Assembly: GCA_030829675.1 (NCBI GenBank)
Contig: JAURAE010000003.1
Span: 1 to 37,001, forward strand
Length of the DNA: 37,001 bases
Direction: 5' to 3'
Source: Schleiferiaceae bacterium
GTDB taxonomy: Bacteria; Bacteroidota; Bacteroidia; Flavobacteriales; Schleiferiaceae
The position numbers were made by a program, and so were the translations under genes. Below are positions 6,606 to 36,363 of this stretch, in pieces. Numbering within the stretch: position 1 is the first letter of the stretch; the number at the start of each line of letters is the position of its first letter. Under the pieces are notes generated by a model. It was not told where the DNA came from. It searched no databases and saw only the letters and a list, made by a program, of their open reading frames with translations.

Positions 6606-8219
6606 TTAATGTCCTTCCGGTCCCTTGATTCCTGCGTTTACTTCAATGTCGATGTAGTTTTCTTGAGGAGTAATGGGACATGAGTACCCGTCGGTATAGG
6701 CGCAATATGGATTGTAGGCATAGTTGAAATCCAAGACCATGGTGCTTCCCTTGGGCTTGGTGATGTCCATGAATCGCCCCGTACCGTAGGTGCTAATCCC
6801 CGTAGTTTTATCCATGAAAGGAAGGAATAGGTGGTCCTGATATTCTTCCATAGCCATCAACCTTTTGCTTTGGTAGAGGTACAATTCCAAAGTTTGTCCG
6901 CGCACCTCGAAAGTGGCCTTGGCGTAGCGGCGGTATTGTCTACTCACGCCTGAGCTAGTGGCCATGTTGAACCACGGTTCATTTTCGAGCACTTCAATGT
7001 TCGCCTCAACGGCCATCTCCGGATTGTAGCTGAAGAATTCATGTCCTTGGAAAGCGGCGCGTTCTTCTGGAGTTAGAGGACTGGTCGTGGAATCGGTATA
7101 AAAATCGTCCAATTCTTGTTGGTACTTCAATACCTCTATACGCTGTGGTGTGGCCAATGGAACTAATTCTCCTACCACTTCATTCGGAACTTCAAAGCTC
7201 AAGCTGTAGTGGTCTATTTTTAGACCGTCTGTTGTTGCGCGCACAACGCCAACGCCGCGGCATTTGCCCATGTGCGGTGAATCTAGTCGTTCATTGAACC
7301 ATAGTGTGTTTCCCTTTCTGTACCAATGGCGTTCGAAGGCTTCGAAGGTCCAAGCGCTTTCTCTTCGGAAGTAAGGAGCGGCCCATTCTCGAAACACTCC
7401 GGCGGTCCAATATTCACCGCCGTCGGTGCCTTGGAAGATGCTTTCATCATTATAAAAGGCTCCGAAATAAGCAGCAGAATCAGCAGTAGCGGCAGCTAGG
7501 TGCCATTGGTCAATAAATACATTAAGTGTTTTTTCTTCGGGGTGAGCGTTGCGAATTATTTCCGAAATATGATAGCCTAGTCGTCCATTCCCTTTGGAGT
7601 TTAGGTGAAGCATGTCAGAAATAAAAAGTTTGGAATCGACCTCTCCGTTTTTATCGGTGAGCCAAGGCCAGCAATCCATGAAGTGATAGTTGTACGCTTC
7701 TGCTCCTTCATTAAGTAGTCTGTTCACTGCCTTGTATCTCGCTAGATGCTCCCATCGTGATGGCGAAGGTTTTGGTGAAAGAAAAAACACGGGAAGGTCT
7801 GGGTGCGTATTCTGGATCCAATTCATCAGTTTCCAAGTGTCAGAATGAATAGTAAATACTTCTCTTTGGCTGCCGTCTTCCTCTATATGAACTATATCAT
7901 TATCCCCTTCATAAATAACGAGGATATCTGGTTTCGTGTCTGAAATGAGTTGCTCCTTATATCTATAGAGATCATCGAAACACGAGCCTCCGATGCCGGC
8001 GTTGACCACCTCATATTCAGGGAAACTTTCAGCCATGTTGTCCCAGAGTCGAAAGGTGGAACTTCCGGCGAAAACAATCCTTGTTTTTTCGTGAGGCAGC
8101 TTCTCGGATGCCTTTACAATCCGACGTACGTCGCGATCGTAGTTTTGGCCGCACTGTCCAAAAGCGATATTCGAAACTAGAAAGAGAAGGGTGGCGAAAT
8201 GGAGGTGGCTACGACGCAT
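6606..8219 (-). CDS. Secreted multidomain protein: SGNH/GDSL hydrolase + SnoaL/NTF2-like + DUF1684
   Basis: Signal peptide to FGQ; SGNH blocks VFAGSSTFRLW, NAGIGGS, YEGDNDI, SDMLHLN; central NTF2-like FIDQWHLAAATADSAAYFGAFYNDESIFQGTDGGEYWTAGVF; C-terminal DUF1684 pattern FFSYNPEM...FDMDI/TYGTGRFMDI...DFNYAYNPYCAYTDGYSCPITPQENYIDIEVNAG. Confidence 0.85.
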   Translation of the reverse strand: MRRSHLHFATLLFLVSNIAFGQCGQNYDRDVRRIVKASEKLPHEKTRIVFAGSSTFRLWDNMAESFPEYEVVNAGIGGSCFDDLYRYKEQLISDTKPDILVIYEGDNDIVHIEEDGSQREVFTIHSDTWKLMNWIQNTHPDLPVFFLSPKPSPSRWEHLARYKAVNRLLNEGAEAYNYHFMDCWPWLTDKNGEVDSKLFISDMLHLNSKGNGRLGYHISEIIRNAHPEEKTLNVFIDQWHLAAATADSAAYFGAFYNDESIFQGTDGGEYWTAGVFREWAAPYFRRESAWTFEAFERHWYRKGNTLWFNERLDSPHMGKCRGVGVVRATTDGLKIDHYSLSFEVPNEVVGELVPLATPQRIEVLKYQQELDDFYTDSTTSPLTPEERAAFQGHEFFSYNPEMAVEANIEVLENEPWFNMATSSGVSRQYRRYAKATFEVRGQTLELYLYQSKRLMAMEEYQDHLFLPFMDKTTGISTYGTGRFMDITKPKGSTMVLDFNYAYNPYCAYTDGYSCPITPQENYIDIEVNAGIKGPEGH

Positions 8220-8532: not shown

Positions 8533-8560
8533 CGTAGGTCCCTAACCCTACGGTTTTTTT
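8533..8560 (+). promoter_or_regulatory. Terminator-like hairpin plus T-tract just upstream of the phosphorylase start codon (attenuator candidate)
   Basis: CGTAGG-TCCCTAAC-CCTACG followed by GTTTTTTT; ATG at 8565. Confidence 0.45.
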
Positions 8561-8564
8561 ACAG

Positions 8565-11500
8565 ATGACTGAACACGATCATATTTATCTGGGATCCATC
8601 CCTGCACAGCAAAATCAACCGGCCGTAGAAGGTGAGGCGGTAAGCATTAACGGTGAATCGTTCTACAAGATTGCCAACTACGACCAGATGCGTCCATTCT
8701 TCATGAGCGTCGTAAGCTCGTCGAATCATTGGATGTTTATCTCTAGCACGGGCGGATTGACAGCCGGTAGAAAGAACAGTAACTATTCGTTGTTTCCCTA
8801 TTACACGGACGATAAAATCAGTGAGTCTTTTGAGACGACGGGGAGCAAATCCATCTTCATTGTTACCAAAGATGGAAAACGCTGTTTGTGGGAGCCGTTT
8901 TCAAATAGATTGAAGGGCATATACCGAATCTCGCGCAACCTGTACAAGAACTCTTACGGCAATAAGCTCATATTCGAAGAAATCAATCACGATTTAGGCG
9001 TGGGCTACTCGTATGAGTGGAATTCTAGTGATCAGTTCGGCTTTGTAAGAAAATCAGTGCTGAAGAACTTGAACGATAATGAGGTTTCCGTTTCCTTGTT
9101 GGACGGTATTCAGAATATTCTTCCCTACGGCGTTGAAGATGCATTGCAAAATGCGTCGAGCAATTTGGTGGATGCCTACAAAAAATGTGAGCTGGAAACA
9201 GATACAGGATTGGGTATTTTCTCATTGAGCGCCATTATCGTAGACCGTGCAGAGCCTTCCGAGGCGTTGAAGGCAAATACGGTTTGGTCGTACGGGTTGC
9301 CGCAAACCAAGGTGCTCCTTTCTTCTCGTCAGTTGGATGTATTCAGAAATGGACAGCCAGTGGTGCAAGAGGTAGATGTGAAAGCTGAGAAAGGTGCTTT
9401 CTTGGTGCACTCAGAATTGGCCATTGCTGCGAATAGCGAAGCTGCTTGGGCATTGGTGGCTGATGTCCACCAAGGACCTTCAGACGTAGCGGCGACGAAG
9501 GCGCGTTTGCAAGAACGTAATGCATTCTTCGCGGCTGTTCGTGAAGATGTGGAGGCGGGGACGAAGCACTTGATAGAATTAGTTGCGGCATCTGATGGCC
9601 TCCAACTCACAGCAGATAGCATACTCAACAATCGTCACTTCGCGAACACGATGTTCAACATCATGCGCGGGGGGATTTTTGATTTGAATTATACCGTTGA
9701 GAAGCAAGACTTCGTGCCATATATGATGAAGGCCAACGGGGCTGTAGCGAAGAAATTTGAGAAGGAACTTAATGCCCTTCCCGAGGTTTTTGATGTATTC
9801 GAAATTCGTGCCTTGGCTGCGAATGCGGGCGATGCTGATTTTGTTCGATTGTGTACTGAATACCTGCCGTTGAAATTTAGCCGTCGTCACGGCGATCCAT
9901 CGCGTCCATGGAATAAGTTCTCGATCAACACACGCAACGAAGAAGACGGTTCCAAGATTTTGGATTACCAAGGAAACTGGAGAGATATTTTCCAGAATTG
10001 GGAAGCGCTTGCGCATTCTTATCCAGAGTTCATGGAGGGAATGATTCACAAGTTCTTGAACGCATCGACTTTTGACGGATACAACCCTTACCGAGTGACA
10101 AAGGATGGCTTTGATTGGGAAATTATTGAGCCGGATAATCCTTGGTCGTACATCGGGTACTGGGGCGATCACCAAATCATTTACTTGCTGAAATTCTTGG
10201 AGTTTAGCGAAAAGTACTACCCAGAGAAATTGGCTTCTTACTTTGGTCAGGCGAGCTTCGTATATGCTAATGTGCCGTACAAAATCAAGAAGTATGAAGA
10301 CCTCTTGGCTAACCCAAAGGATACCATTGAATTTGATTTGACGGGGCATGAAGCCATTGAGGAAATGCGTGCGAAGATGGGTGTGGACGGTGCGTTGTTG
10401 CAAAACCAGCAGCAGGAGATCCACCACGTAAACTTCATTGAGAAGATCCTAGCTACAGTGTTGGCAAAGCTTTCGAACTTCATTCCAGAAGCGGGGATTT
10501 GGTTGAATACACAACGTCCGGAATGGAACGATGCAAACAATGCACTGGTAGGAAATGGAGTGTCGATGGTGACCTTGTATTACCTGCGTAGATTCTTGGC
10601 ATTCTTCGAGCAATTGGTCGAAGGGAACGAAGATAAGGTGAGCGTTTCAAAGGAATTGGCCACCTTCTATACTGAGGTTAAAACTGCCCTCGAATCTTCT
10701 CGTCAATTGTTGAGCGGATCTATCTCGAATCAAGATCGCAAAGGCGTCTTGGATGCCTTGGGTAGGGCGGCGGAAAAATATAGAACGAGTATTTATGGTG
10801 TAGGGTTTAGTGGCGAATTTGTGGAACTTTCCATCGCCGACGTGAAGTCCTTCTCTCAAACGGCACGTGAGCATTTGGAGCATTCTATCCGTGCAAACAA
10901 GCGTGCCGATGGGTTGTACCATGCCTATAACTTGATGACAGTAGAAGAAGATGGCATTGCAGTGTCTTACCTCTCGGAAATGTTAGAAGGACAAGTGGCT
11001 GTTTTGAGCGCAGGGTATTTGAATACAGCTGAGAGTTTGGCGGTATTGGATGCGTTGAAGGCCAGTGCATTGTTCCGTGAAGATCAGTATAGCTACATTC
11101 TCTACCCGAATAAGGAGCTGCCTCGTTTTGTGGCAAAAAATGTCATTTCTACACCGCGTGCGGAGCAGAGTGATTTGCTTAAAGAATTGGTCGCAGCGGG
11201 CAACCGTCAGGTCGTGACCAAAGATTGCAATGGACGCTATCACTTTAGTGGAACCTTCAACAATGTTGATAGCTTGAAAGCCGCGTTGAAGGAGTTGCCA
11301 GAGCAGTACCAGGCATTGGCACAGCGTGAAACGGAGTTGTTGAGCACCATTTTCGAAGAGGTGTTTAATCATAAATCATTCACCGGCCGTTCAGGGACTT
11401 TCTTTGGTTACGAAGGACTAGGCTCGATCTATTGGCACATGGTGTCGAAGCTTTTGTTGGCGGCTTATGAGAACACACAGCGCGCCTTGGATGAGGATGC

Positions 11501-12017
11501 CGAAGGTGCGTTGGTCGGTCGATTGTTCGACCACTACTTTGAGATCCTTGCCGGTATTGGAGCCCATAAATCACCGAAGCTTTATGGTGCCTTCCCAACA
11601 GATCCGTATTCGCACACCCCAGGAGGGAAAGGTGCGCAGCAGCCTGGGATGACCGGACAGGTGAAAGAAGATATTTTGAGCAGGTTTGGAGAGCTGGGCG
11701 TTCGCGTTTCAGGCGGAGCATTGCACTTCACGCCTCAGATTTTGAAAACATCGGAGTTCCTTTCAGAAGGACAAGTGTTCCACTACCGCGATGTGGCAGG
11801 TACGGAGCAGGAATTAGCATTGGAGGCGGGGTCATTGGCCTTTACCGTTTGCCAAGTCCCTGTGGTGTACAAGCGTGCTTCGCAAAGCAGCATCAAAGTC
11901 ATTCGCCAGGATAGCGTGCAGGATTTCGACGGGCAAGCCTTGGATGTGGCGACCTCGACGGAGATTTTCCAGCGCCGTCAATCGGTATTACGCATTGAGG
12001 TGGAGGTTGTGAAATAA
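8565..12017 (+). CDS. Very large GH149/GH94-like beta-1,3-oligoglucan phosphorylase, cytoplasmic
   Basis: 1150 aa; no signal peptide; (alpha/alpha)6-phosphorylase-type motifs LDYQGNWRDIFQNWEALA and SYIGYWGDHQIIYLLKFLE; length and GH16/GH17/GH30 neighbours fit GH149. Confidence 0.75.
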   Translation: MTEHDHIYLGSIPAQQNQPAVEGEAVSINGESFYKIANYDQMRPFFMSVVSSSNHWMFISSTGGLTAGRKNSNYSLFPYYTDDKISESFETTGSKSIFIVTKDGKRCLWEPFSNRLKGIYRISRNLYKNSYGNKLIFEEINHDLGVGYSYEWNSSDQFGFVRKSVLKNLNDNEVSVSLLDGIQNILPYGVEDALQNASSNLVDAYKKCELETDTGLGIFSLSAIIVDRAEPSEALKANTVWSYGLPQTKVLLSSRQLDVFRNGQPVVQEVDVKAEKGAFLVHSELAIAANSEAAWALVADVHQGPSDVAATKARLQERNAFFAAVREDVEAGTKHLIELVAASDGLQLTADSILNNRHFANTMFNIMRGGIFDLNYTVEKQDFVPYMMKANGAVAKKFEKELNALPEVFDVFEIRALAANAGDADFVRLCTEYLPLKFSRRHGDPSRPWNKFSINTRNEEDGSKILDYQGNWRDIFQNWEALAHSYPEFMEGMIHKFLNASTFDGYNPYRVTKDGFDWEIIEPDNPWSYIGYWGDHQIIYLLKFLEFSEKYYPEKLASYFGQASFVYANVPYKIKKYEDLLANPKDTIEFDLTGHEAIEEMRAKMGVDGALLQNQQQEIHHVNFIEKILATVLAKLSNFIPEAGIWLNTQRPEWNDANNALVGNGVSMVTLYYLRRFLAFFEQLVEGNEDKVSVSKELATFYTEVKTALESSRQLLSGSISNQDRKGVLDALGRAAEKYRTSIYGVGFSGEFVELSIADVKSFSQTAREHLEHSIRANKRADGLYHAYNLMTVEEDGIAVSYLSEMLEGQVAVLSAGYLNTAESLAVLDALKASALFREDQYSYILYPNKELPRFVAKNVISTPRAEQSDLLKELVAAGNRQVVTKDCNGRYHFSGTFNNVDSLKAALKELPEQYQALAQRETELLSTIFEEVFNHKSFTGRSGTFFGYEGLGSIYWHMVSKLLLAAYENTQRALDEDAEGALVGRLFDHYFEILAGIGAHKSPKLYGAFPTDPYSHTPGGKGAQQPGMTGQVKEDILSRFGELGVRVSGGALHFTPQILKTSEFLSEGQVFHYRDVAGTEQELALEAGSLAFTVCQVPVVYKRASQSSIKVIRQDSVQDFDGQALDVATSTEIFQRRQSVLRIEVEVVK

Positions 12018-12034
12018 TTGGACACTTCGAAAAA

Positions 12035-13297
12035 ATGAAAAAGAGTACATGGAACATAGTCGGAATTGTTTGCGCCTTCGTCGCACTCTTCGGCTGTGCT
12101 CATGAACCGACAAATACGACGCCAATGAAAACCGCGGCAGAAATTTTAGGGAACCCGGAGTATCAGGCCATCTCCTATGGTGGCTACCGTGCGAAATCAC
12201 GTGAGGTACAGCCGACGATCCAGCAGTTGAAGAACGACATGAAGATCATGCATGCCATGGGCATTCGCGTCTTGCGGACTTACAACCTACAATTGGACCA
12301 TGCCCCAAATGTTCTTCGAGCCATTCGGGAGCTGAAGCAGGAAGATCCGACCTTCGAAATGTATGTCATGTTAGGGGCCTGGATTGATTGTCAGGATGCG
12401 TGGACGGACCACCCGAATCATGAGTTTGAGGATCCGACCAACAATGAAAGTGAGATAAGCAAGGCGGTACATTATGCCAACGAATACCCTGATATTGTCA
12501 AGGTCATTGCTGTCGGCAATGAGGCTATGGTGCACTGGGCTTGGAGCTACTTTGTTAAGCCCGGGGTCATCCTGAAATATGTGAATTACCTACAGGAGTT
12601 AAAAACCATGGGCAAACTGAGCCCGGATATTTGGATCACAAGCTCGGATAATTTCGCTTCATGGGGCGGTGGTAGTCCAGATTACCACAATGAGGATCTC
12701 GAAGCGTTGGCCAACGCGGTGGATTATGTTTCAATGCACACCTATCCATTTCACGATACCCATTACAATATTGCGTTCTGGGAGGTTCATGAAAGTACGG
12801 TGGCAGATGCTAGTGATGATGAGCGAGTGGAATTGGCCATGAATCGCGCTGTATTCTATGCGAAGAACCAGTACAACAGTGTGAAGGCCTATCTCGATAG
12901 TGTAGGGGTGGAGAAACCTGTGCACATCGGGGAGACCGGTTGGGCCAGTGTGAGTCGTGGGTTATATGGTCCTAATGGTTCGTTTGCTGCGGATGAAGTG
13001 AAGCAGGCGCTCTACTACAAGAAGATGCGCGCGTGGACAGATTCTGCGGGTATTGCATGCTTCTATTTTGAGGCCTTTGATGAGCCATGGAAGGATCCCA
13101 ATCACGAAGAAGGAAGTGAAAACAACTTTGGCCTGATTACCCTGAATGGGCAGGCGAAGTACGCAATATGGTCTTTAGTGGACCAAGGTATTTTTGAAGG
13201 ACTAATGCGCAACGGCAATACCATCACCAAGTCATTCGGTGGGGATAGTGTGGCGGTAAAAGCAACTGTGTTAGTGCCTAAAACGATGAACGAATAA
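12035..13297 (+). CDS. GH17-family beta-1,3-glucanase-type lipoprotein
   Basis: Lipobox LFGC; IRVLRTYNLQ, VIAVGNEAM (acid/base region), VHIGETGWAS (nucleophile region), FYFEAFDEPWK. Confidence 0.8.
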   Translation: MKKSTWNIVGIVCAFVALFGCAHEPTNTTPMKTAAEILGNPEYQAISYGGYRAKSREVQPTIQQLKNDMKIMHAMGIRVLRTYNLQLDHAPNVLRAIRELKQEDPTFEMYVMLGAWIDCQDAWTDHPNHEFEDPTNNESEISKAVHYANEYPDIVKVIAVGNEAMVHWAWSYFVKPGVILKYVNYLQELKTMGKLSPDIWITSSDNFASWGGGSPDYHNEDLEALANAVDYVSMHTYPFHDTHYNIAFWEVHESTVADASDDERVELAMNRAVFYAKNQYNSVKAYLDSVGVEKPVHIGETGWASVSRGLYGPNGSFAADEVKQALYYKKMRAWTDSAGIACFYFEAFDEPWKDPNHEEGSENNFGLITLNGQAKYAIWSLVDQGIFEGLMRNGNTITKSFGGDSVAVKATVLVPKTMNE

Positions 13298-13299
13298 AG

Positions 13300-14292
13300 A
13301 TGAAGGGAATGTATTTACGTTTTGGTTTGTGTTTGCTTGCGGCTATTGTATTTACTGCTTGTACTACTGAGGTCGTAGAAGAAACTTCGGCTGAGGTGAG
13401 TGCTCCGATGTACATGAAAGGAGTGTGCTACCACCCAGTTGCCAAGGGTGATACCATCCGTAGTTTCGACCGCATTGATGAAGATCTTGCTTTGATGGTG
13501 GATGCCGGGATGAACACTATTCGCACCTATGCCCCTATTGAAGAGGTAGAGGTGTTGGATAAGATTGCTGAGAAAGGCATGAAAGTCGTCGTGGGTTTCG
13601 GTTACAATCAAAACGGATTTTATGACTTGCTCTCAGGTTCTTACCTCGAGTATGTCGAGCGTTTCAAAGACCATGAAGCGATTTTGATGTGGGAATTGGG
13701 TAATGAGTATAACTACCACCCTGAATGGTTCGAGGGTGATATCATGAATTGGTACATCGCTTTGAAGGAGGCGGTGAGTGCTATCCATGCCTTGGACTCT
13801 GTACATCCCGTTGCGACGGCTCATGGCGAGTTACCGGATTCTTTGGCCTTTCACATGGGCGCGGAAGTGGATATGTGGGGCTTGAATGTGTACCGTTGGG
13901 ACCAACCGGCCACGATTATCGACGAATGGAACGCGGTAAGCAATAAGCCGTTCTATTTCTCAGAGGTTGGAGCAGATAGCTACATGCGCATTGCCGATGC
14001 AGGATTTGCACAAGGGCCAAACGAGGACGCCCAAGCGGTGGCCTTGGATACGATCATCGATCAAATTTTGGCAAGACAATCTGAAAACCAAGGTTTGCTA
14101 TTGTTCTCGTTCACTGACGGATGGTGGAAAGCGGGCAATCCGGATAAACAAGATATTGGTGGTTGGGCGCCAAAAAGCAGTGGTGTGCCGTACGATGGCG
14201 CTCCGAATGAGGAATATTGGGGAATTGTAGATATCGACCGTCAACCTAAAAAAGGTTGGGAAGTAGTAATCGAACATTTCACCAAAAACTAA
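13300..14292 (+). CDS. Clan GH-A (GH2/GH5-like TIM barrel) glycoside hydrolase lipoprotein
   Basis: Lipobox FTAC; GMNTIRTYAP, LMWELGNEYNYH, PFYFSEVGADSY carry candidate catalytic Glu residues. Confidence 0.7.
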   Translation: MKGMYLRFGLCLLAAIVFTACTTEVVEETSAEVSAPMYMKGVCYHPVAKGDTIRSFDRIDEDLALMVDAGMNTIRTYAPIEEVEVLDKIAEKGMKVVVGFGYNQNGFYDLLSGSYLEYVERFKDHEAILMWELGNEYNYHPEWFEGDIMNWYIALKEAVSAIHALDSVHPVATAHGELPDSLAFHMGAEVDMWGLNVYRWDQPATIIDEWNAVSNKPFYFSEVGADSYMRIADAGFAQGPNEDAQAVALDTIIDQILARQSENQGLLLFSFTDGWWKAGNPDKQDIGGWAPKSSGVPYDGAPNEEYWGIVDIDRQPKKGWEVVIEHFTKN

Positions 14293-14298
14293 AAACCG

Positions 14299-15807
14299 AT
14301 GAACCTAGCTACAAAAACATCACTTTTCGGTCTAGCGCTGGCTTTATTGAGCTGCGGTGATGGTAGCGAACCAAATACTACCATGCAAGTATTCGAAACG
14401 TCTAGAGGGGGAAATGCGTTAACTGAGGTACAAGACTTTGAATCCACAGAAAATCCCATTCTCATTCGTGTGAATGTGGAAGAAGCAAAGCAAACAATCA
14501 CTGGTTTTGGCGGCGCTTTTACTGAGGCTTCGGCTTACTTATTGAATCAATTGGGCGAAGAAAATCGCAATAAAATACTGCAAGCCTATTTTTCGGATGA
14601 TGGGGCCAAGTATTCTTTGATGCGTACCCACATGAATTCATGTGACTTTTCCCTCTCAAATTACAGTTACACTCCGGTGGAAGGTGATGTCGATTTGGAG
14701 CACTTTACTATTGAGGAGGATCTTGATGATTTGATTCCTATGATCAAAGGCGCACAATCAATCTCAACGGAAGGTTTTAAGTTATTTGCATCTCCTTGGA
14801 CGGCAGCTCCATGGATGAAAGACAACAATCATTGGGTAGGCGGCAAGTTGCTTCCTCAATACTATCCAACATGGGCCAAATTCTTCTCAAAATATGTCGA
14901 TGCATATGAAACCGAGGGCATTCCTATTTGGGGTTTTACCGTTGAAAATGAGCCTCATGGAAACGGGAATAATTGGGAGAGCATGCACTACAGTCCGCAG
15001 GAAATGGTGGACTTTGTCAAGAATCACCTAGGGCCAACTCTTGAAGCGGATGGGAAAGGTGATAAAGTTATTTTAGGCTACGATCAGAACCGCGAAGGCA
15101 TTGAAGAGTGGGCAGACGAAATGTATGCCAATGAGGAAAATGCCAAGTATTTTGATGGGATGGCGGTGCACTGGTACGAGAGTACGGTGAGCTATTTCCC
15201 GGAGATGTTGGAATATGCCCATGCTAAGGCCCCTGAGAAATACCTGATCGAAACCGAAGGTTGTATTGATGCGGAGGTGCCCGTGTGGCAAGACGACGAG
15301 TGGTATTGGAGGAAAGAAGCTACGGACTGGGGGTATACTTGGCGTGAAGAGGATAAGAAATACTTGCACCCTAAATACGCTCCTGCGCACCGCTATGCCA
15401 GGGATATTATTGGTTGTTTGAACCACTGGGTAGACGGTTGGGTGGATTGGAATATGGTCCTAGATCGACAAGGTGGGCCCAATTGGTTTAAGAATTGGTG
15501 TATCGCCCCGGTAATTGTAGATCCCGAAACTGATGAGGTGTATTTTACTCCTTTATATTACATAATGGCGCACTTCTCCAAGTTCATGAGGCCAGGAGCA
15601 GTAGTGCTGTCCTCTGAGGTTGCCGGAGGTGAAATCATGGCTGCTGCCGTCAGAAATCCAGATGGAACTTACGCCATTACGGTATTTAACGAATACGAAG
15701 AAAAGAAAGGTTATACGCTTGATATTGATGGTCAATCGTATAATCTACATATACCACCCCAAGCCTTGCAAACGATCTTGATAGATCCAAAACAAAACAA
15801 CTTATGA
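14299..15807 (+). CDS. GH30-family glycoside hydrolase lipoprotein (probable beta-1,6-glucosidase/glucanase)
   Basis: Lipobox LLSC; ITGFGGAFTEASAYLLNQL, GFTVENEPHG, YLIETEGC, C-terminal beta domain. Confidence 0.9.
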   Translation: MNLATKTSLFGLALALLSCGDGSEPNTTMQVFETSRGGNALTEVQDFESTENPILIRVNVEEAKQTITGFGGAFTEASAYLLNQLGEENRNKILQAYFSDDGAKYSLMRTHMNSCDFSLSNYSYTPVEGDVDLEHFTIEEDLDDLIPMIKGAQSISTEGFKLFASPWTAAPWMKDNNHWVGGKLLPQYYPTWAKFFSKYVDAYETEGIPIWGFTVENEPHGNGNNWESMHYSPQEMVDFVKNHLGPTLEADGKGDKVILGYDQNREGIEEWADEMYANEENAKYFDGMAVHWYESTVSYFPEMLEYAHAKAPEKYLIETEGCIDAEVPVWQDDEWYWRKEATDWGYTWREEDKKYLHPKYAPAHRYARDIIGCLNHWVDGWVDWNMVLDRQGGPNWFKNWCIAPVIVDPETDEVYFTPLYYIMAHFSKFMRPGAVVLSSEVAGGEIMAAAVRNPDGTYAITVFNEYEEKKGYTLDIDGQSYNLHIPPQALQTILIDPKQNNL

Positions 15808-17219
15808 GCAACGTCACGAATAAAGTCCCAATAGGACAAAAAATTGCTTTCGGGGTAGGCATGTTGGCCAACCAAATGTTTCCTGCAGCCATGGGAATTT
15901 TTATGGTCGTGTTGGTGCAAGATCTTGGGTTCCCAGGTTGGATGTGGGGTGTAATATTCTTTGCTCCTCGAGCATTCGATGCAATATTGGATCCTATAAT
16001 GGGCTATATCTCAGATAATACGCGATCAAGATGGGGACGAAGGAGACAGTATGTGTTCATCGGCGCCATAATTATGGGCGTTTCTTTTGCTTGTCTTTGG
16101 CAGTTATACCGTGAAAATAGTGTGGCCTACAACTTTACTTATGTAATGCTTTGGTCATTTGTGTTTTACCTAGGGCTGACCATTTTTGGGGTTCCATATG
16201 TTAGTATGGGCTATGAAATGAGCGACGATTACCACGAGCGAACCAATGTGATGGCCGTCTCTCAATGGATAGGACAGTGGGCCTGGGTTATTGCGCCTTG
16301 GTTTTGGGTGATCATGTACGATCCAGATTGGTTCCCAACCGCCGATGAGGCTACACGTACCTTAGCAGTTTGGGTCGCTGTCGTATTCACGCTTTGTGCA
16401 ATGGCTCCTGCTTTTTTCATTAAGAGCGAAAGCACAAAAGACAGAGTTGATTATGAGCCGCTAAACCTCAGTGGAATTTTCGGCAGCTTGAAGAATATCG
16501 CCCTTGGATTTAAAGAGGCCTTTTCCTCAGTTCCGTTTAGAAGATTGTGTATTTCAACGTTCCTTATTTTCAATGGATTTAATACCATCGCGAGCTTCAC
16601 CTTTTTTGTCATCAAAAGCCACTTGTTCAATGATGATGCTTCGGCCGTCGGGGTATGGCCTACCTTGTTTGGAAGTGTGGGTGCGTTGATTACCACATTC
16701 TTGGTCATTCCCATTGTAGCATGGATGTCAAAGGCACTAGGTAAAAAACGTGCGTTCATATTGAGCCAAGGTATTTCTATTATCGGTTATGTATTGCTTT
16801 GGTTCTTGATGATCCCAGGCAAGCCCTATATGTTCTTGTTCGCCTTGCCGTTTCACTCTTTCGGAATCGGAGGATTATTTACCATCATGATGTCGATGAC
16901 TTCAGACGTGCTTGATATTGATGAATTGAATACTGGTAAACGACGTGAAGGGGTCTTTGGAGCGATTTACTGGTGGATGGTAAAGCTTGGCTTTGCCTTT
17001 GCCGGTGCATTAAGCGGATTGATTTTAACTGCGGTGAACTATCAAAGTGGTGGTGGAGCGCAGCCAGAAGGTGCGGTAGACGGTCTTAGAATGTTCTTCT
17101 CAGGACTACCAATACTTTGTACACTTATTGCCATTGCCGTAATGTGGAATTACAAAGTGGATGAAAATTATGCGAAAGAGGTCCGAGCAAAATTGGACCA
17201 ACGAAAATCTCAACAATAA
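15804..17219 (+). CDS. GPH/MelB-like MFS sugar transporter
   Basis: 471 aa, 12 TM-like segments; FDAILDPIMGYISDNTRSRWGRRRQYVFIGA signature; ATGA overlap with the GH30 stop. Confidence 0.9.
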   Translation: MSNVTNKVPIGQKIAFGVGMLANQMFPAAMGIFMVVLVQDLGFPGWMWGVIFFAPRAFDAILDPIMGYISDNTRSRWGRRRQYVFIGAIIMGVSFACLWQLYRENSVAYNFTYVMLWSFVFYLGLTIFGVPYVSMGYEMSDDYHERTNVMAVSQWIGQWAWVIAPWFWVIMYDPDWFPTADEATRTLAVWVAVVFTLCAMAPAFFIKSESTKDRVDYEPLNLSGIFGSLKNIALGFKEAFSSVPFRRLCISTFLIFNGFNTIASFTFFVIKSHLFNDDASAVGVWPTLFGSVGALITTFLVIPIVAWMSKALGKKRAFILSQGISIIGYVLLWFLMIPGKPYMFLFALPFHSFGIGGLFTIMMSMTSDVLDIDELNTGKRREGVFGAIYWWMVKLGFAFAGALSGLILTAVNYQSGGGAQPEGAVDGLRMFFSGLPILCTLIAIAVMWNYKVDENYAKEVRAKLDQRKSQQ

Positions 17220-17233
17220 ACCGAAATAAACCT

Positions 17234-18118
17234 ATGTCTTTTAGAAGAGAGAAGTTTTTGTCACTGGCGGGACCAGTAGTCAATAATCTTAGTCTTGAAG
17301 AACTTAAATCTCAGAGCCGTCAAATGTTGCAGAACGGCATTCACGGTATTTGCTTTAGCGCCTATGATGAGGGGCAAAAGCCAGGGGACCAATTATCTGA
17401 GGCCCAGGTCCGCCGAAAATTGGCGATTCTTAAACCTCACATCTCTTGGGTACGTACGTTCTCTTGTACCGAAGGAAACGAAATTATCGCACGTGTGGCT
17501 CATGAAATGGGCATCAAGACCCTTGTTGGTGCTTGGTTGGGCGACGACCTCGAAAAGAATGAAGGCGAAATCGAAGGCTTGATTTCATTGTGTAAAGAAG
17601 GCGTGGTAGATGTAGCCGCTGTTGGAAATGAGGTATTGTATCGCGAAGACTTAACGGTGGATGTCCTTATAGACTATATCAAGCGCGTCAAAGAAGAAGT
17701 GACCGAGGTGCCTGTGGGATATGTTGATGCATATTATGAGTTCACAGACCATCCAGAAGTGGCAGATGTATGTGATATCATTTTGGCCAATTGCTATCCA
17801 TATTGGGAGGGTTGTTCGCTGGAGTATTCTCTCATGTATATGAAACAGATGTACTTTGAAGCACAGGCGGCTGGTAAAGGAAAGCCGGTACTGATCACTG
17901 AGACTGGATGGCCTAGCAGTGGTCAGAGCATTGGTGGTGCCCACGCTTCGTTTGAAAACAGCTTGAAATACTTCATCAACGCTCAGCGCTGGTCAAAGTC
18001 GGAAGATATCCCGATGTTCTATTTCTCCTCTTTCGACGAGAGTTGGAAGATTGAAAAAGAGGGCGATGTCGGTGCCTCTTGGGGCCTTTGGGACAAGGAC
18101 GAAAAGTTGAAGTTCTAA
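17234..18118 (+). CDS. GH17-family protein without signal peptide (predicted cytoplasmic)
   Basis: 294 aa; AAVGNEVLYRED and VLITETGWPSSGQ; N terminus MSFRREKFLSLAGPVVNN lacks a signal sequence. Confidence 0.85.
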   Translation: MSFRREKFLSLAGPVVNNLSLEELKSQSRQMLQNGIHGICFSAYDEGQKPGDQLSEAQVRRKLAILKPHISWVRTFSCTEGNEIIARVAHEMGIKTLVGAWLGDDLEKNEGEIEGLISLCKEGVVDVAAVGNEVLYREDLTVDVLIDYIKRVKEEVTEVPVGYVDAYYEFTDHPEVADVCDIILANCYPYWEGCSLEYSLMYMKQMYFEAQAAGKGKPVLITETGWPSSGQSIGGAHASFENSLKYFINAQRWSKSEDIPMFYFSSFDESWKIEKEGDVGASWGLWDKDEKLKF

Positions 18119-19173
18119 CGCTTCACAACCTTTTCGCGGTAGCCTTTAAATCCAGGTTGTAATATTTCCAATACGTAGAGTCCCGGGGCGTAGGCCTCGG
18201 TATCTATGTACCCACTGCCGTCGTGAAGCTGGGAGTAGATTTGCTTGCCCGTAATGTCGTAAAGGTTGATGGTACTTGGACCGGTGAGGCGCACAAATAA
18301 TTGGTCCTCAAAAGGGTTTCCTATAGACCCAATTCCCCTTTGCGCCTGTTCTTCCATACTCAAATTTGATTGCTGGTACACGCGGACATAGTCCACTTCC
18401 ATTGCGCTGCTGGTAAAGCTCGAGTCTATAGAAGGTTGGATAGCGATGTTCAACAACAAGTATTGCGGATCATAGAACGGCCAAGTGCTGGCAGTGTAGG
18501 TAGAGGGCTCGTACGTGTAATGTACCACGCTGTCCACGCTGAACACCATTTTAGTTTCGCTCCATTCAAGGGCATAGACGTGGTAGCTTGTGCTGGCACC
18601 ACTGACGTATTGTCCCCCGACATTCACAGTTCCACCGAAGCTTGACGGGGTATGCATGGCGCTTGAGACATAGTTTTGATTGTGCCCCCAATGTTCCATG
18701 ATGTCAATCTCACCACAAGCTGGCCAACCAGTGGTGCCGTAGCCTTGTACTTGCCAATACGCACCTATTTCAGTGATGTTTTGCCCGAGCATCCAAATGG
18801 CCGGCCATGTTCCTACGCCTGTTGGAAGTTTAGCTCGAACCTCGACGCGACCATAGGTGAAGGCGAATTTTGAATTTAAGCGAGCTGAGGTATAATCTTT
18901 AGTGACGTTTTGATCTGTAAAGGTCTCACGAAGTGCAGTTAGATGAAGACTTCCACCGCTCACATAGGCATTGGTATCGCGGTCTGTATAATGTTGTATT
19001 TCTCCATTACACCAGCTTTGGCCAGCATTTGGGAGGAGGGTTTGCTGCCACCATTTTGAGGTATCTAGTGAGCCGTCGACGTTGAATTCATCCGCCCATA
19101 CGAGGGTGTCAAAAACTTGGGCTTGTAGTGAAGTCGTGCTGATGAGCAACGCAAAGACAAAAATGGAACGCAT
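18115..19173 (-). CDS. GH16-family endo-beta-1,3-glucanase (laminarinase type), secreted, probable T9SS C-terminal sorting domain
   Basis: EIDIMEHWG GH16 motif; signal peptide MRSIFVFALLISTTSLQAQ (Met at 19173 preferred over 19224); C-terminal NLYDITGKQIYSQ...APGLYVLEI...KVVKR type-A CTD pattern. Confidence 0.88.
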   Translation of the reverse strand: MRSIFVFALLISTTSLQAQVFDTLVWADEFNVDGSLDTSKWWQQTLLPNAGQSWCNGEIQHYTDRDTNAYVSGGSLHLTALRETFTDQNVTKDYTSARLNSKFAFTYGRVEVRAKLPTGVGTWPAIWMLGQNITEIGAYWQVQGYGTTGWPACGEIDIMEHWGHNQNYVSSAMHTPSSFGGTVNVGGQYVSGASTSYHVYALEWSETKMVFSVDSVVHYTYEPSTYTASTWPFYDPQYLLLNIAIQPSIDSSFTSSAMEVDYVRVYQQSNLSMEEQAQRGIGSIGNPFEDQLFVRLTGPSTINLYDITGKQIYSQLHDGSGYIDTEAYAPGLYVLEILQPGFKGYREKVVKR

Positions 19174-19250
19174 AGCTAATGTTTGTATGCCATAAAAATC
19201 GGGACTAGAGGGGACTTGGCCCAATTTCTTTCAAGACAAATGCCTGACAA

Positions 19251-31573: not shown

Positions 31574-34500
31574 ATGAAGAACAAATTGTCACTGTGGTCA
31601 GTGTTGGCTTTCATGCTTACTGTAAACTTTGCGATTGCGCAATCAGTTTCAGGGGTAGTTAGCGACGCTGGTTCAGGAGAACCACTACCAGGGGTAGCGG
31701 TATCAGAGAAGGGTTCTAACAATGCAACTCTAACTGACTTTGATGGTAAGTTTACCATCAACGTTGGCGAAGGCGCAACGCTAGTATTCTCTTCTATGGG
31801 TATGGAAACGAAAGAAGTTGCTGCAACTTCTGATTTCCTACAAGTTTCACTTGATGGTACAAGCCAAAACCTTGACGAGGTGGTTGTAACAGCATTGGGT
31901 ATTTCTCGTGAGAAGAAATCCCTAGGTTACGCTACACAAGAAGTTGATGGTGCGGAAGTAACTAAGGTGAAAGATGCAAACTTCGTAAACAGCTTGAGCG
32001 GTAAAGTCGCTGGTGTTGAAATCAAGAGTTCAGGTACTCTTGGTGGATCTGCCAACGTGGTGATCCGTGGTTACAAGTCTTTGACTGGTAACAACCAGGC
32101 TCTTTTCGTTGTTGATGGTGTGCCAATCTCGAACGCAACAGGTAACAGCGGAAACGTTGCTAGCGGTCGTGGTGGTTACGATTACGGTAATGCTGCCATG
32201 GATATCAACCCTGAAGATATTGAGAACATCTCTGTATTGAAGGGTGCGGCTGCAACTGCGATCTACGGATCACGTGCTGCAAATGGTGTAGTTATGATTA
32301 CTACCAAGAGCGGTAAAGCTTCAGGTGGTAAGAAAACTTTGGGTGTTACTGTAAACACTGGTGTAACTGTAGGTTCGGTAAACCCAGATACTTGGGTTCG
32401 TCACCAACAATCTTACGGTCCAGGTTACGGTCCTTTCTACGGTCCTAATTACCACTACTTAGCGAATGGGGATAGTGTATTTATTGATGCACGTGCAACT
32501 CCATACGATGTAGATGGTGATGGTACTTACGAATTGACAGTGCCAATGGGTGAGGATGCTTCTTGGGGTCTTGCTGTTGATCCAAGTCTTCAGATTTACG
32601 ACTGGGAATCTATCCACCCGCTATCAACTCAATACGGTCAGTCAAGAGCTCATACTGCTCCAGGTGCTGGAAATGATGCAATGTCATTCTGGCAACAAAG
32701 CGTTACTCGTAACAACAACGTTTCGATTGACGGTGGTGGTGAAAACTCTTCTTTCCGTCTATCAGCGACTGATTTCACTCAATCAGGTATCGTTCCTGGT
32801 TCTGAAATCAAGCGTAGCAACGTGAGTTTCAGTGGTCGTTTCAACGCTTCAGACAAATTGACTGTAAGCGCTAAAGCAAACTACGTGAAGCAAGATGGTA
32901 AAGGTCGCTACGGTACTGGTTACGATTCACGTAACCCTAACCAAAGCTTCCGTCAGTGGTACAACGTATTGACCAACATGACTTCACAACGCGAAGAATA
33001 CGAGAACTCTGGTGCAAACATCACTTGGAACCCTTACGGTTACGGTGCTGCTGCTCCTTACAAGCCTCACTACTTCGATAACTTCTACTTCTCTGCCCTT
33101 GAAAATTATGCAACTGATACGCGTAACCGTATCATTGGTAACATCATGGCAGAATACCAAATTAACGACTGGTTGAAATTGACAGGCCGTATGTCTGCTG
33201 ATACTTACTCTGAGTTGCGTGAAGAGCGCATCGCAGTTTCATCTGTAGATGTGAGCCGTTACTCTCGCAACAACCGCAACTTCACTGAGCGTAACAATGA
33301 TTTGTTCTTGAACTGGAACAAGTACTTCGGTACGGATGGTGAAATTTCTTTTGCGGGTATGTTGGGTTACAACTCACGTCGTACTTCATTCAGCTCTATT
33401 GGTGCTGCAACTAACGGTGGTTTGGTTGTTCCTGGCGTTTACGCTTTGAGCAACTCTGTAGCTGCTCCAGCTGCTCCAGGTGAGAGTGAATACCAGATCG
33501 GTGTTGATGGTATCTTCGGTCAGGCTTCTTTCGGCTACAAGAATTTCTTGTACGTTGACTTGACTGCTCGTCAAGATCAATCATCTACCCTTCCTGTTGC
33601 AAACAACACTTATCTATACCCATCTGCGACATTGTCGTTGATCTTCTCTGAACTTGTTGATATTGACGGTTTGGACTTCGGTAAGGTTCGCTTGAATTAT
33701 GCTTCTGTAGGTTCTGATGGGCCTGCTCAAGCTTTGGTTGATGCTTACGGTATCGGAACACCATTTAACGGTGTAACTTTGGCGTCTGCTCCATCGACTC
33801 AGCGCAATGCTGGTCTTCTTCCTGAAGTCACAGTAAGTACTGAGGCTGGTTTGGAATTGAAGTTCTTGAAAAACCGTGCTGGTTTGGATTTGAGCTTCTA
33901 CAACTCTTCTACTTACAACCAGATTCTACCTGCTCAAGTATCATCAGCAACAGGTACTTACTACAAGTATGTGAACGCTGGTCAGATTGACAACTCAGGG
34001 GTTGAATTGAGTGCTTACTTTACTCCAGTAAAAACGAGCGACTTCCAGTGGGATGTGAACTTGAACTGGTCACGCAACCGCAACAACGTTGTTGAGTTGT
34101 TTGGTGATTCACAAACATTGCTTCTTGCTTCTGTACAGGGTGGTATCAACATTACTGCTCGTGTAGGTCAGCCTTACGGTACTTTGGAAGGAACTACTTT
34201 CCAGAGAGACGCTGCTAGTGGTGCGCCAATCGTTTACGAATGGTCAAGCTGGAGAGGTGGTCACCGCTACTTACGTGGTGATGTAGGCGCAGTAGGAAAC
34301 ATCCAGGCAGATTGGAGAGGTGGTATTAACAACAGCTTCTCTTACAAGAATATCACGTTCTCTGCTTTGATCGATGCACAAATGGGTGGAAACTTCTTCT
34401 CATTGGATACTTGGTACGGTTACGGAACAGGTGTTTACGACTTCCAAGCAGGAACTAACTCTAACGGTCATACAATCCGTGACTACACTGAAAACGGTGG

Positions 34501-34939
34501 TGGTATGTCTTGGGCTGATGTTCAAGCGTCTAACCCACACGTAGAGACTCCTATTCTATGGGACGGTGCCACTGTTGATGGCGACGGAAACCCTGTAGGT
34601 TCAGGCTCACCAGATGCTAACTTGATGATGTACATGAACGGTTACGGTAACACTCTAGGTTGGGCCTTGGCTCCAAACGAGTTGCACGTATACGATGCAT
34701 CATTCGTGAAATTGCGTGAGGTTGCATTGACTTACCAAGTACCAACTAGCCAGTTGGGAGATCTTCCAGTTGCTGGTGTAGATGTAAGCTTGGTCGGTCG
34801 CAACTTGGCAATCCTGTACAAGAACACTCCTTACTCTGATCCAGAAGCTGGTTTGAGTGCAGGTAACGTACAAGGATACCAAAGTGGTGCATACCCAACT
34901 TTGCGTGAAGTAGGTTTGAACTTGAGAGTTAAATTCTAA
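31574..34939 (+). CDS. susC: SusC/RagA-family TonB-linked outer membrane transporter
   Basis: 1121 aa; signal peptide; carboxypeptidase-D-like N domain VSGVVSDAGSGEPLPGVAV; LDEVVVTALGISREKKSLGYATQEV; plug VLKGAAATAIYGSRAANGVVMITTKSG. Confidence 0.96.
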   Translation: MKNKLSLWSVLAFMLTVNFAIAQSVSGVVSDAGSGEPLPGVAVSEKGSNNATLTDFDGKFTINVGEGATLVFSSMGMETKEVAATSDFLQVSLDGTSQNLDEVVVTALGISREKKSLGYATQEVDGAEVTKVKDANFVNSLSGKVAGVEIKSSGTLGGSANVVIRGYKSLTGNNQALFVVDGVPISNATGNSGNVASGRGGYDYGNAAMDINPEDIENISVLKGAAATAIYGSRAANGVVMITTKSGKASGGKKTLGVTVNTGVTVGSVNPDTWVRHQQSYGPGYGPFYGPNYHYLANGDSVFIDARATPYDVDGDGTYELTVPMGEDASWGLAVDPSLQIYDWESIHPLSTQYGQSRAHTAPGAGNDAMSFWQQSVTRNNNVSIDGGGENSSFRLSATDFTQSGIVPGSEIKRSNVSFSGRFNASDKLTVSAKANYVKQDGKGRYGTGYDSRNPNQSFRQWYNVLTNMTSQREEYENSGANITWNPYGYGAAAPYKPHYFDNFYFSALENYATDTRNRIIGNIMAEYQINDWLKLTGRMSADTYSELREERIAVSSVDVSRYSRNNRNFTERNNDLFLNWNKYFGTDGEISFAGMLGYNSRRTSFSSIGAATNGGLVVPGVYALSNSVAAPAAPGESEYQIGVDGIFGQASFGYKNFLYVDLTARQDQSSTLPVANNTYLYPSATLSLIFSELVDIDGLDFGKVRLNYASVGSDGPAQALVDAYGIGTPFNGVTLASAPSTQRNAGLLPEVTVSTEAGLELKFLKNRAGLDLSFYNSSTYNQILPAQVSSATGTYYKYVNAGQIDNSGVELSAYFTPVKTSDFQWDVNLNWSRNRNNVVELFGDSQTLLLASVQGGINITARVGQPYGTLEGTTFQRDAASGAPIVYEWSSWRGGHRYLRGDVGAVGNIQADWRGGINNSFSYKNITFSALIDAQMGGNFFSLDTWYGYGTGVYDFQAGTNSNGHTIRDYTENGGGMSWADVQASNPHVETPILWDGATVDGDGNPVGSGSPDANLMMYMNGYGNTLGWALAPNELHVYDASFVKLREVALTYQVPTSQLGDLPVAGVDVSLVGRNLAILYKNTPYSDPEAGLSAGNVQGYQSGAYPTLREVGLNLRVKF

Positions 34940-34953
34940 GAAGTAATTGAGAT

Positions 34954-36363
34954 ATGAAAAAGTTATTATTTGCTGCAGCTGCAGCACTCGCAATCACTTC
35001 TTGTACTAGCGATCTAAGCGACTTAAACAAAAACGGCAAAGCTCCTGAGAGCGTACCTTCTGGTGCCTTGTTTGCCAACGCAGTAATGGGTTACTACGAT
35101 TTTGACGCTGTACAAAATGTGAACTTGAACAACTTGCGTCTTTGGTCTCAGCACTGGACGCAGACTACATACGTCGACGAGTCAAACTTCAATTTGAACG
35201 AGCGTGATGTTAACGGTAGCACTTTCTTTAACATGTATGTTACGGTAATCCGTGACTGTGAAGAAGCACGTACTGCTGTAATGAATGGACCAGAAAGTGC
35301 AGCTGCGAAAGCTGCTTCTGTTGCTGCTATTGAAGTAATGGAAGTAATGGCATACCAGTACTTGGTGGATTTGTTTGGTGATGTTCCTTATTCTGAGGCA
35401 TTGAGCGAAACAAACGTTCCTAAGTATGATGCTGGTTCTACGATCTACGCGGACCTTTTGGCTCGTTTGGATGCTGCTACAGCTGACCTAAGTGGTTCAA
35501 ACACTTTCGGTTCATCTGATATCATCTATGGTGGTGATGCTGCTGCTTGGAAGAAAGCTGCTAACTCTTTGATGTTGCGTATGGCTGTTCGTATGATTGG
35601 ATACGACGCTGCTGCTGCAAAATCTTGGGGTGAGAAAGCTATCGCTGGTGGTGTATTTACATCTTCTGCTGATGATATGCGTTTGTTCTACTCTTCAGCG
35701 CCTCCTCATACTCATCCGATGTGGGTAACTTTGGTTCAAAGTGGTCGTACTGACTACGTTGCCTCAGCGACTCTAGGTGATGTATTGAACGGTTTGTCTG
35801 ATCCACGTCGTGCAGGTTTCTTTAAGAACTTGGGCGGTTCAGATTCAGTAACTGGTGCTCCTCATGGATTCCAAGTAAACTATTACGACTACTCACAGCC
35901 AGGAACTGCGTTGGAAGATCCAACTTGGTCTCACGCTGCGATCAGCTACGTAGAAGTTGAGTTTTTGATGGCTCATGCTGCTGTTGCAGGTTGGGCAGGT
36001 GCTAGCGATGCTGCTACACACTACGAGAACGGTATCCGCGCTTCTATCGAAGAGTGGGGTGGTTCATCTGCTGATGCTGATGCTTACATGATGCACCCTA
36101 TGGTTGCATTTAGCTCTACTACTGCTGCAACACAAATCGGTGTTCAGAAGTGGATCGCTATGTACAGCAACGCGTTCGAAGCATATGCTGCCGTACGTAT
36201 GTATGACCTGCCTATGCAAACAGCTGCTTTGGTTGGTACCGTAACCCCTGCACGTTACAGCTACCCATTGGACGAGTATTCTTTGAATACTACAAACGTT
36301 CAAGCGGCTGCTGCTAACTACGGTGGTGACGATACATTCGCTAAAGTATTCTGGGACATGTAA
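34954..36363 (+). CDS. susD: SusD/RagB-family surface glycan/nutrient-binding lipoprotein
   Basis: 469 aa; lipobox AITSC; VMAYQYLVDLFGDVPYSEAL; 14 nt after susC. Confidence 0.93.
   Translation: MKKLLFAAAAALAITSCTSDLSDLNKNGKAPESVPSGALFANAVMGYYDFDAVQNVNLNNLRLWSQHWTQTTYVDESNFNLNERDVNGSTFFNMYVTVIRDCEEARTAVMNGPESAAAKAASVAAIEVMEVMAYQYLVDLFGDVPYSEALSETNVPKYDAGSTIYADLLARLDAATADLSGSNTFGSSDIIYGGDAAAWKKAANSLMLRMAVRMIGYDAAAAKSWGEKAIAGGVFTSSADDMRLFYSSAPPHTHPMWVTLVQSGRTDYVASATLGDVLNGLSDPRRAGFFKNLGGSDSVTGAPHGFQVNYYDYSQPGTALEDPTWSHAAISYVEVEFLMAHAAVAGWAGASDAATHYENGIRASIEEWGGSSADADAYMMHPMVAFSSTTAATQIGVQKWIAMYSNAFEAYAAVRMYDLPMQTAALVGTVTPARYSYPLDEYSLNTTNVQAAAANYGGDDTFAKVFWDM

Follow-up and report, generated by a model that had tools for sequence, protein, structure and literature searches.

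The window analysed here, a 37,001-nt stretch of a Schleiferiaceae genome (contig JAURAE010000003.1), carries six open reading frames (ORFs) at 8565-18118, all on the plus strand, which very probably constitute a 'variant 1' laminarin-utilisation operon in which imported oligosaccharides would be phosphorolysed in the cytoplasm, as judged from the sequences of the encoded proteins. Successive genes are separated by 17, 2, 6, -4 and 14 nt, and the coordinates, strand and gaps of these six tightly packed genes are as first noted in a preliminary description of the window. Lipobox signals were found on the three middle enzymes, namely LFGC in the GH17, FTAC in the clan GH-A protein and LLSC in the GH30 glycoside hydrolase (GH), and no recognisable signal peptide is present in the GH149 protein or the last GH17. 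The six genes and a convergent neighbour, with the evidence for each, are as follows.

8565-12017, plus strand: GH149 beta-1,3-oligoglucan phosphorylase, 1150 aa (NF058639, PDB 6hq6, motifs)
12035-13297, plus strand: GH17 lipoprotein, FbGH17A/MlGH17A-type endo-beta-1,3-glucanase (PDB 6fcg, lipobox)
13300-14292, plus strand: small clan GH-A lipoprotein, 330 aa (PF02836, GH158 9oro, alignment, model)
14299-15807, plus strand: GH30 lipoprotein, probable beta-1,6-glucosidase of the FbGH30 type (PF02055, synteny)
15804-17219, plus strand: GPH/MelB-type sugar:cation symporter of the major facilitator superfamily (MFS) (PF13347, TIGR00792)
17234-18118, plus strand: predicted cytoplasmic GH17, MlGH17B-type, 294 aa (PF00332, 4wtp, residue pattern)
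18115-19224, minus strand: GH16 with type IX secretion tail, convergent to the operon (PF00722, TIGR04183)

The order GH149-GH17-(GH-A)-GH30-MFS-GH17 was found again in dozens of loci of other genera, shared across Flavobacteriaceae, Saprospiraceae and Cryomorphaceae-type genomes, and the cluster is therefore not a chance arrangement. Our comparison covers 80 related GH149 loci (L-numbers), which were picked by closeness to the window GH149 and are not independent of one another; 54 of them have full flanks, and a GH16 lies near GH149 in most. Among named relatives, a Cryomorphaceae metagenome-assembled genome (MAG; L002) is nearest, and its GH149 is 92% identical to that of the window. Of the 88 genomes in the taxonomic family of the window, 33 have a GH149 above the family cut-off, and a GH149 match was recorded for 23 of the 25 genomes listed for its genus.

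The window locus belongs to an already published laminarin locus type, of which the small GH-A enzyme is the unexplained part. GH149 genes in loci with GH16, GH17, GH30 and MFS genes were reported together with the family itself (PMC5827456), the same locus type is induced by laminarin in Formosa (PMC6246565) and has been characterised in Muricauda (PMC13188888), and during blooms it is highly expressed as GH149-GH0-GH30_1-GH17 (PMC10108472). The variant 1 polysaccharide utilisation locus (PUL) of Formosa sp. Hel1_33_131, Polaribacter, Ca. Prosiliicoccus and Ca. Abditibacter comprises GH149, GH17A, GH30, MFS and GH17B, and this gene set is present in the window in the conserved order, likewise with a nearby GH16. 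Unlike in that PUL, the MFS and GH17 of the window are separate genes rather than a fusion, and its GH-A is a short lipoprotein encoded within the operon. In the Muricauda lutaonensis locus (MlGH17A, MlGH17B), GH17A, GH30, MFS and GH17B follow an upstream GH149 as in the window, whereas a so-called GH2 gene lies upstream there and the window has its 330-aa GH-A lipoprotein between GH17A and GH30. Ca. Abditibacter, a Cryomorphaceae genus, was already listed with a variant 1 locus (PMC10108472), and with the window a marine bacterium of Cryomorphaceae type with a small genome joins the carriers. Laminarin, a storage sugar of algae, ranks among the largest pools of carbon in marine turnover. During blooms, variant 1 loci are among those with the highest expression (PMC10108472). 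What the analysis contributes is a corrected catalytic residue, a rule based on position 136 of the GH17 proteins, and a pointer to an unassigned GH-A enzyme.

The GH149 phosphorylase and the signal-less GH17

The 1150-aa protein is assigned by its sequence to the GH149 beta-1,3-glucan phosphorylases. The NCBIfam equivalog NF058639 matched residues 18-1148 with 1765.1 bits, exceeding the cut-off of 1150 bits by 615 bits, and the solved GH149 phosphorylase Pro_7066 (PDB 6hq6) aligned over residues 21-1149 with 1539 bits; a Pfam search gave no match on this protein. Because of these two matches, the central proposal of the preliminary description, a signal-less beta-1,3-glucan phosphorylase, holds at the sequence level. 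The window protein resembles Pro_7066 (PDB 6hq6/6hq8) and EgP1 in near-full-length homology, length class and absence of a signal peptide, and the RD motif (R473-D474), the WND loop (W654-N655-D656) and GYEGLGSIYWH with its conserved His are identical. In contrast, where Pro_7066 has its surface-site YE pair the window protein seems to have F992-E993, a replacement of Tyr by Phe that occurs in 22 of 81 aligned GH149 sequences, the window included. In the structural study of Pro_7066, the catalytic residue was predicted to be D653, in the WND loop, and the sugar-phosphate motif was placed at R470-D471 (PMC6771811). These positions correspond here to D656 (codon 10530-10532), which is therefore the predicted catalytic Asp of the window protein, and to R473-D474. 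The candidate put forward earlier, D535 in YWGDHQ, was placed at the correct codon (10167-10169), but a catalytic role for it is not supported, the published catalytic Asp corresponding to D656. All GH149 active-site motifs checked, RD and WND among them, are invariant in the 81 sequences, as is D535, so that D535 probably matters, though not as the proposed general acid.

The last GH17 was recognised by PF00332 (53 bits) and by a fungal glucanosyltransferase structure (4wtp, 119 bits). It contains E133, Y136, Y167-Y168, W191-E192 and E223, of which E133, Y136, W191, E192 and E223 stand at the same numbers in MlGH17B of Muricauda, so that the transglycosylase residues of the latter are retained. 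MlGH17B, which has no signal peptide and is predicted to be cytoplasmic, is a beta-1,3-glucanosyltransglycosylase that releases laminaribiose and moves the remainder via a beta-1,6 linkage, giving branched products with a degree of polymerisation of up to 20-26; Tyr136, Trp191 and Glu192 were held responsible for the transfer, and the Tyr is replaced by Met in the transporter-fused FbGH17B (PMC11005184). Across all loci, every one of the 54 free GH17 domains that are close to it carries the Y-W-E set. The 13 loci with MFS-GH17 fusions (e.g. L054:15227-17560) have Met or Leu at position 136 without exception, which provides a sequence rule for separating free transglycosylase-type GH17 proteins from transporter-fused ones. 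Since Y136, W191 and E192 are kept and free and fused domains divide in this way, the last GH17 is most likely a transglycosylase of the MlGH17B type and not an exo-glucosidase of the transporter-fused type. The family of the two GH17 proteins had been recognised correctly, but their roles had not been separated, the last one most likely not being another hydrolase. Together in the cytoplasm, GH149 and GH17B may allow better use of short chains, or may serve storage.

The latter view, in which GH149 would use glucose 1-phosphate to lengthen beta-1,3 chains and GH17B would introduce beta-1,6 kinks and branches, giving a laminarin-like reserve, instead of or besides catabolism, appears unlikely for this operon. 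It draws on the reversibility of GH149 enzymes in vitro (PMC5827456), on the long branched products of the predicted cytoplasmic MlGH17B (PMC11005184), for which a storage role has been proposed (PMC13188888), and on the retention of the transfer residues in the window GH17, of a YWE type found in 43 of the 54 fully covered loci; yet the two genes share a tight cluster with those for secreted hydrolases and an importer, as is usual in catabolism, and free phosphate in cells favours phosphorolysis. Quite unlikely, in our view, is that the last GH17 acts as an exo-beta-1,3-glucosidase, the activity assigned to FbGH17B (PMC6246565), with free glucose rather than glucose 1-phosphate as the main cytoplasmic product. 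Its 53% identity to the fused domain of L054 would fit such an activity, but the free GH17 adjacent to that fusion resembles it more (61%), the window protein has the Tyr at position 136 that all fused domains lack, and in RmBgt17A this Tyr is essential for transfer (PMC11005184). That the 1150-aa protein belongs to GH94, GH161 or a non-phosphorolytic clan GH-Q relative is hardly credible, as GH161 structures gave weak local similarity (about 40 bits, compared with 1539 bits for the GH149 structure and an equivalog score far over its cut-off) and GH94 was absent among the Pfam and NCBIfam hits; membership of GH94 or GH161 was rejected, and of the earlier wording 'GH149/GH94-like' the first half stands while the second applies at the clan level only.

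Lipoprotein enzymes, importer and the predicted pathway

Phosphorolytic use of imported oligosaccharides, the reading we prefer, is consistent with the remaining genes. The GH17 lipoprotein aligns in full length with the crystallised laminarinase FbGH17A (PDB 6fcg, 555 bits over residues 18-416) and is classed on this match as an endo-beta-1,3-glucanase of the FbGH17A/MlGH17A type; its Pfam GH17 score of 25.9 bits lies slightly below the cut-off of 28.2, and E163 and E300 are the catalytic Glu residues by motif. The GH30 lipoprotein, a TIM barrel plus beta-sandwich, gave matches to PF02055 (263 bits) and PF17189, both above their cut-offs, has GH30 glucosylceramidases as its nearest solved structures and scored 236 bits against the endo-1,6-glucanase equivalog, below the cut-off of 700. 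It shares about 62% identity with its syntenic counterpart in the Formosa Hel1_33_131 MAG (L054). The GH30 of the Formosa laminarin locus is a beta-1,6-glucosidase (PMC6246565), and the window protein is a probable enzyme of this FbGH30 type, removing laminarin side glucoses. The MFS protein, matched by PF13347 (239 bits) and by TIGR00792 (181 bits, below the cut-off of 231), is a GPH/MelB-type transporter and the probable importer of laminari-oligosaccharides. The convergent GH16 (PF00722, 75 bits; type IX tail TIGR04183 above its cut-off) is a probable surface or extracellular endo-beta-glucanase, likely to be accessory to the laminarin pathway. The Pfam, NCBIfam and PDB matches and the lipoboxes thus bear out the earlier naming of GH17/GH30 lipoproteins, a GPH-type MFS and a beta-1,3-glucan pathway.

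From these assignments we infer the substrate, the direction of the phosphorylase, the transported sugar and the localisation of the enzymes. Laminarin would be cut by the GH16, secreted through the type IX system, and by the lipid-anchored GH17, and GH30 would strip off side glucoses in beta-1,6 linkage; the same glucan may be attacked by the small GH-A lipoprotein. Short beta-1,3-oligosaccharides would then be imported by the MFS protein and phosphorolysed by cytoplasmic GH149 to glucose 1-phosphate and shorter chains, with the signal-less GH17 presumably shuffling glucosyl stretches among the oligosaccharides; glucose 1-phosphate would enter glycolysis via phosphoglucomutase, and phosphoglucomutase-family genes are indeed present in the genome.

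Several observations weigh against this pathway. In contrast to the variant 1 PUL, no SusC/SusD pair is adjacent to the operon, although a variant 1 locus of an NS4 MAG is likewise without one (PMC10108472). The nearest pair lies at 31574-36363, 13 kb downstream past unrelated genes, and its SusC is only 22-38% identical to the SusC proteins of other GH149 loci. One GH3 gene is present elsewhere in the genome, so hydrolysis may compete with phosphorolysis, and the source genome (1.42 Mb, the window being contig 117) is 72% complete. Given its low SusC similarity and its position after polysaccharide-synthesis genes, the distant SusC/SusD pair was left out of the locus as unproven.

The small GH-A lipoprotein

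PF02836, a GH2-type TIM barrel, is the sole Pfam domain of the small GH-A lipoprotein (330 aa). The sandwich domains that precede the barrel in GH2 are absent from it both in the Pfam search and in the structure model. With a TIM barrel alone, the protein was not accepted as a GH2 member. By motif, E136 and E222 are the catalytic Glu residues, and both are invariant in an alignment of 20 orthologues. The model, with a predicted local distance difference test score (pLDDT) of 84.6, gave GH2 glucuronidases and GH158 as fold matches, and the closest solved structures by sequence profile are GH158 endo-laminarinases (9oro), at a weak 39.5-47.5 bits and about 20% identity. BuGH158 and LaGH157 are among its nearest solved relatives, but the small GH-A is shorter, has low similarity to them and could not be assigned to either family. 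On its sequence the lipoprotein thus fits no CAZy family tested and appears related to GH158 and GH2. It probably corresponds to the 'GH0' gene of variant 1 laminarin loci in bloom studies (PMC10108472) and to the upstream 'GH2' gene of the Muricauda paper, the identity of these genes being deduced. One MAG has the small GH-A and GH30 joined as a single in-frame ORF of 825 aa (L033:13734-16208), hinting that the two enzymes act together.

The short GH-A occurs in 27 of the 80 related loci and a longer homologue in 37, with no locus containing both; where flanks are fully covered, the counts are 18, 33 and 0. The chance of such non-overlap is about 1e-11 if the loci are assumed to be independent, which they are not. 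Among 218 genomes of the order, the short form was found in 9, all of the genus of the window, the ~1050-aa form in about 9 and both in none, which are too few independent cases to strengthen the pattern much. The switch between short and long forms recurs inside genera, as Formosa (short in Formosa algae, L026; long in the Hel1_33_131 MAG, L054), Winogradskyella (short in L012, long in L056) and Polaribacter (short in L081, long in L074) each have both across loci. An alignment of the profiles of the two forms (probability 99.9, E 3.7e-34) spans the barrel from end to end.

The longer homologues are mostly ~1050 aa and, in four loci, ~434 aa in length. The ~1050-aa proteins (L019:3422-6574, L056:2544-5723 and 31 further loci) continue beyond the GH-A domain for about 650 residues. 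By fold, the long form is matched best by GH158 and GH157 enzymes. Its C-terminal half was predicted at low confidence (pLDDT 61.6) as serial beta-hairpins, and fold matches of the model include outer-membrane barrels (LptD and a BtuB-type transporter), suggesting that the C-terminus may resemble an outer-membrane beta-barrel. Tentatively, the small GH-A can be viewed as an unassigned GH family of laminarin loci that comes in interchangeable formats, one per locus: a free lipoprotein (of the window type, or of ~434 aa in some Polaribacter) or a ~1050-aa hydrolase with an outer-membrane beta-barrel-like domain. Together with the cytoplasmic phosphorylase-transglycosylase pair, it would form a two-compartment system containing one uncharacterised surface or periplasmic enzyme.

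Sequences around the operon

A scan for sigma-70-type promoters over the operon gave 14 matches, against 15.3 in shuffles, and thus no excess. Immediately ahead of the GH149 start codon, at 8533-8560, lies a hairpin followed by seven T, which is partly kept in close relatives, with an apparent paired change in L086 and a broken copy in L085. The upstream motif AAATGTAT..CTGAC is kept more widely than this hairpin. On the minus strand, 6606-8219 encodes an unusual three-part protein with GDSL lipase, SnoaL-like and DUF1684 domains. The SusC/SusD genes at 31574-36363 (SusD-like_2) come last in a stretch for polysaccharide synthesis that includes Wzx/Wzy-like, Wzz-like and sulfotransferase genes.

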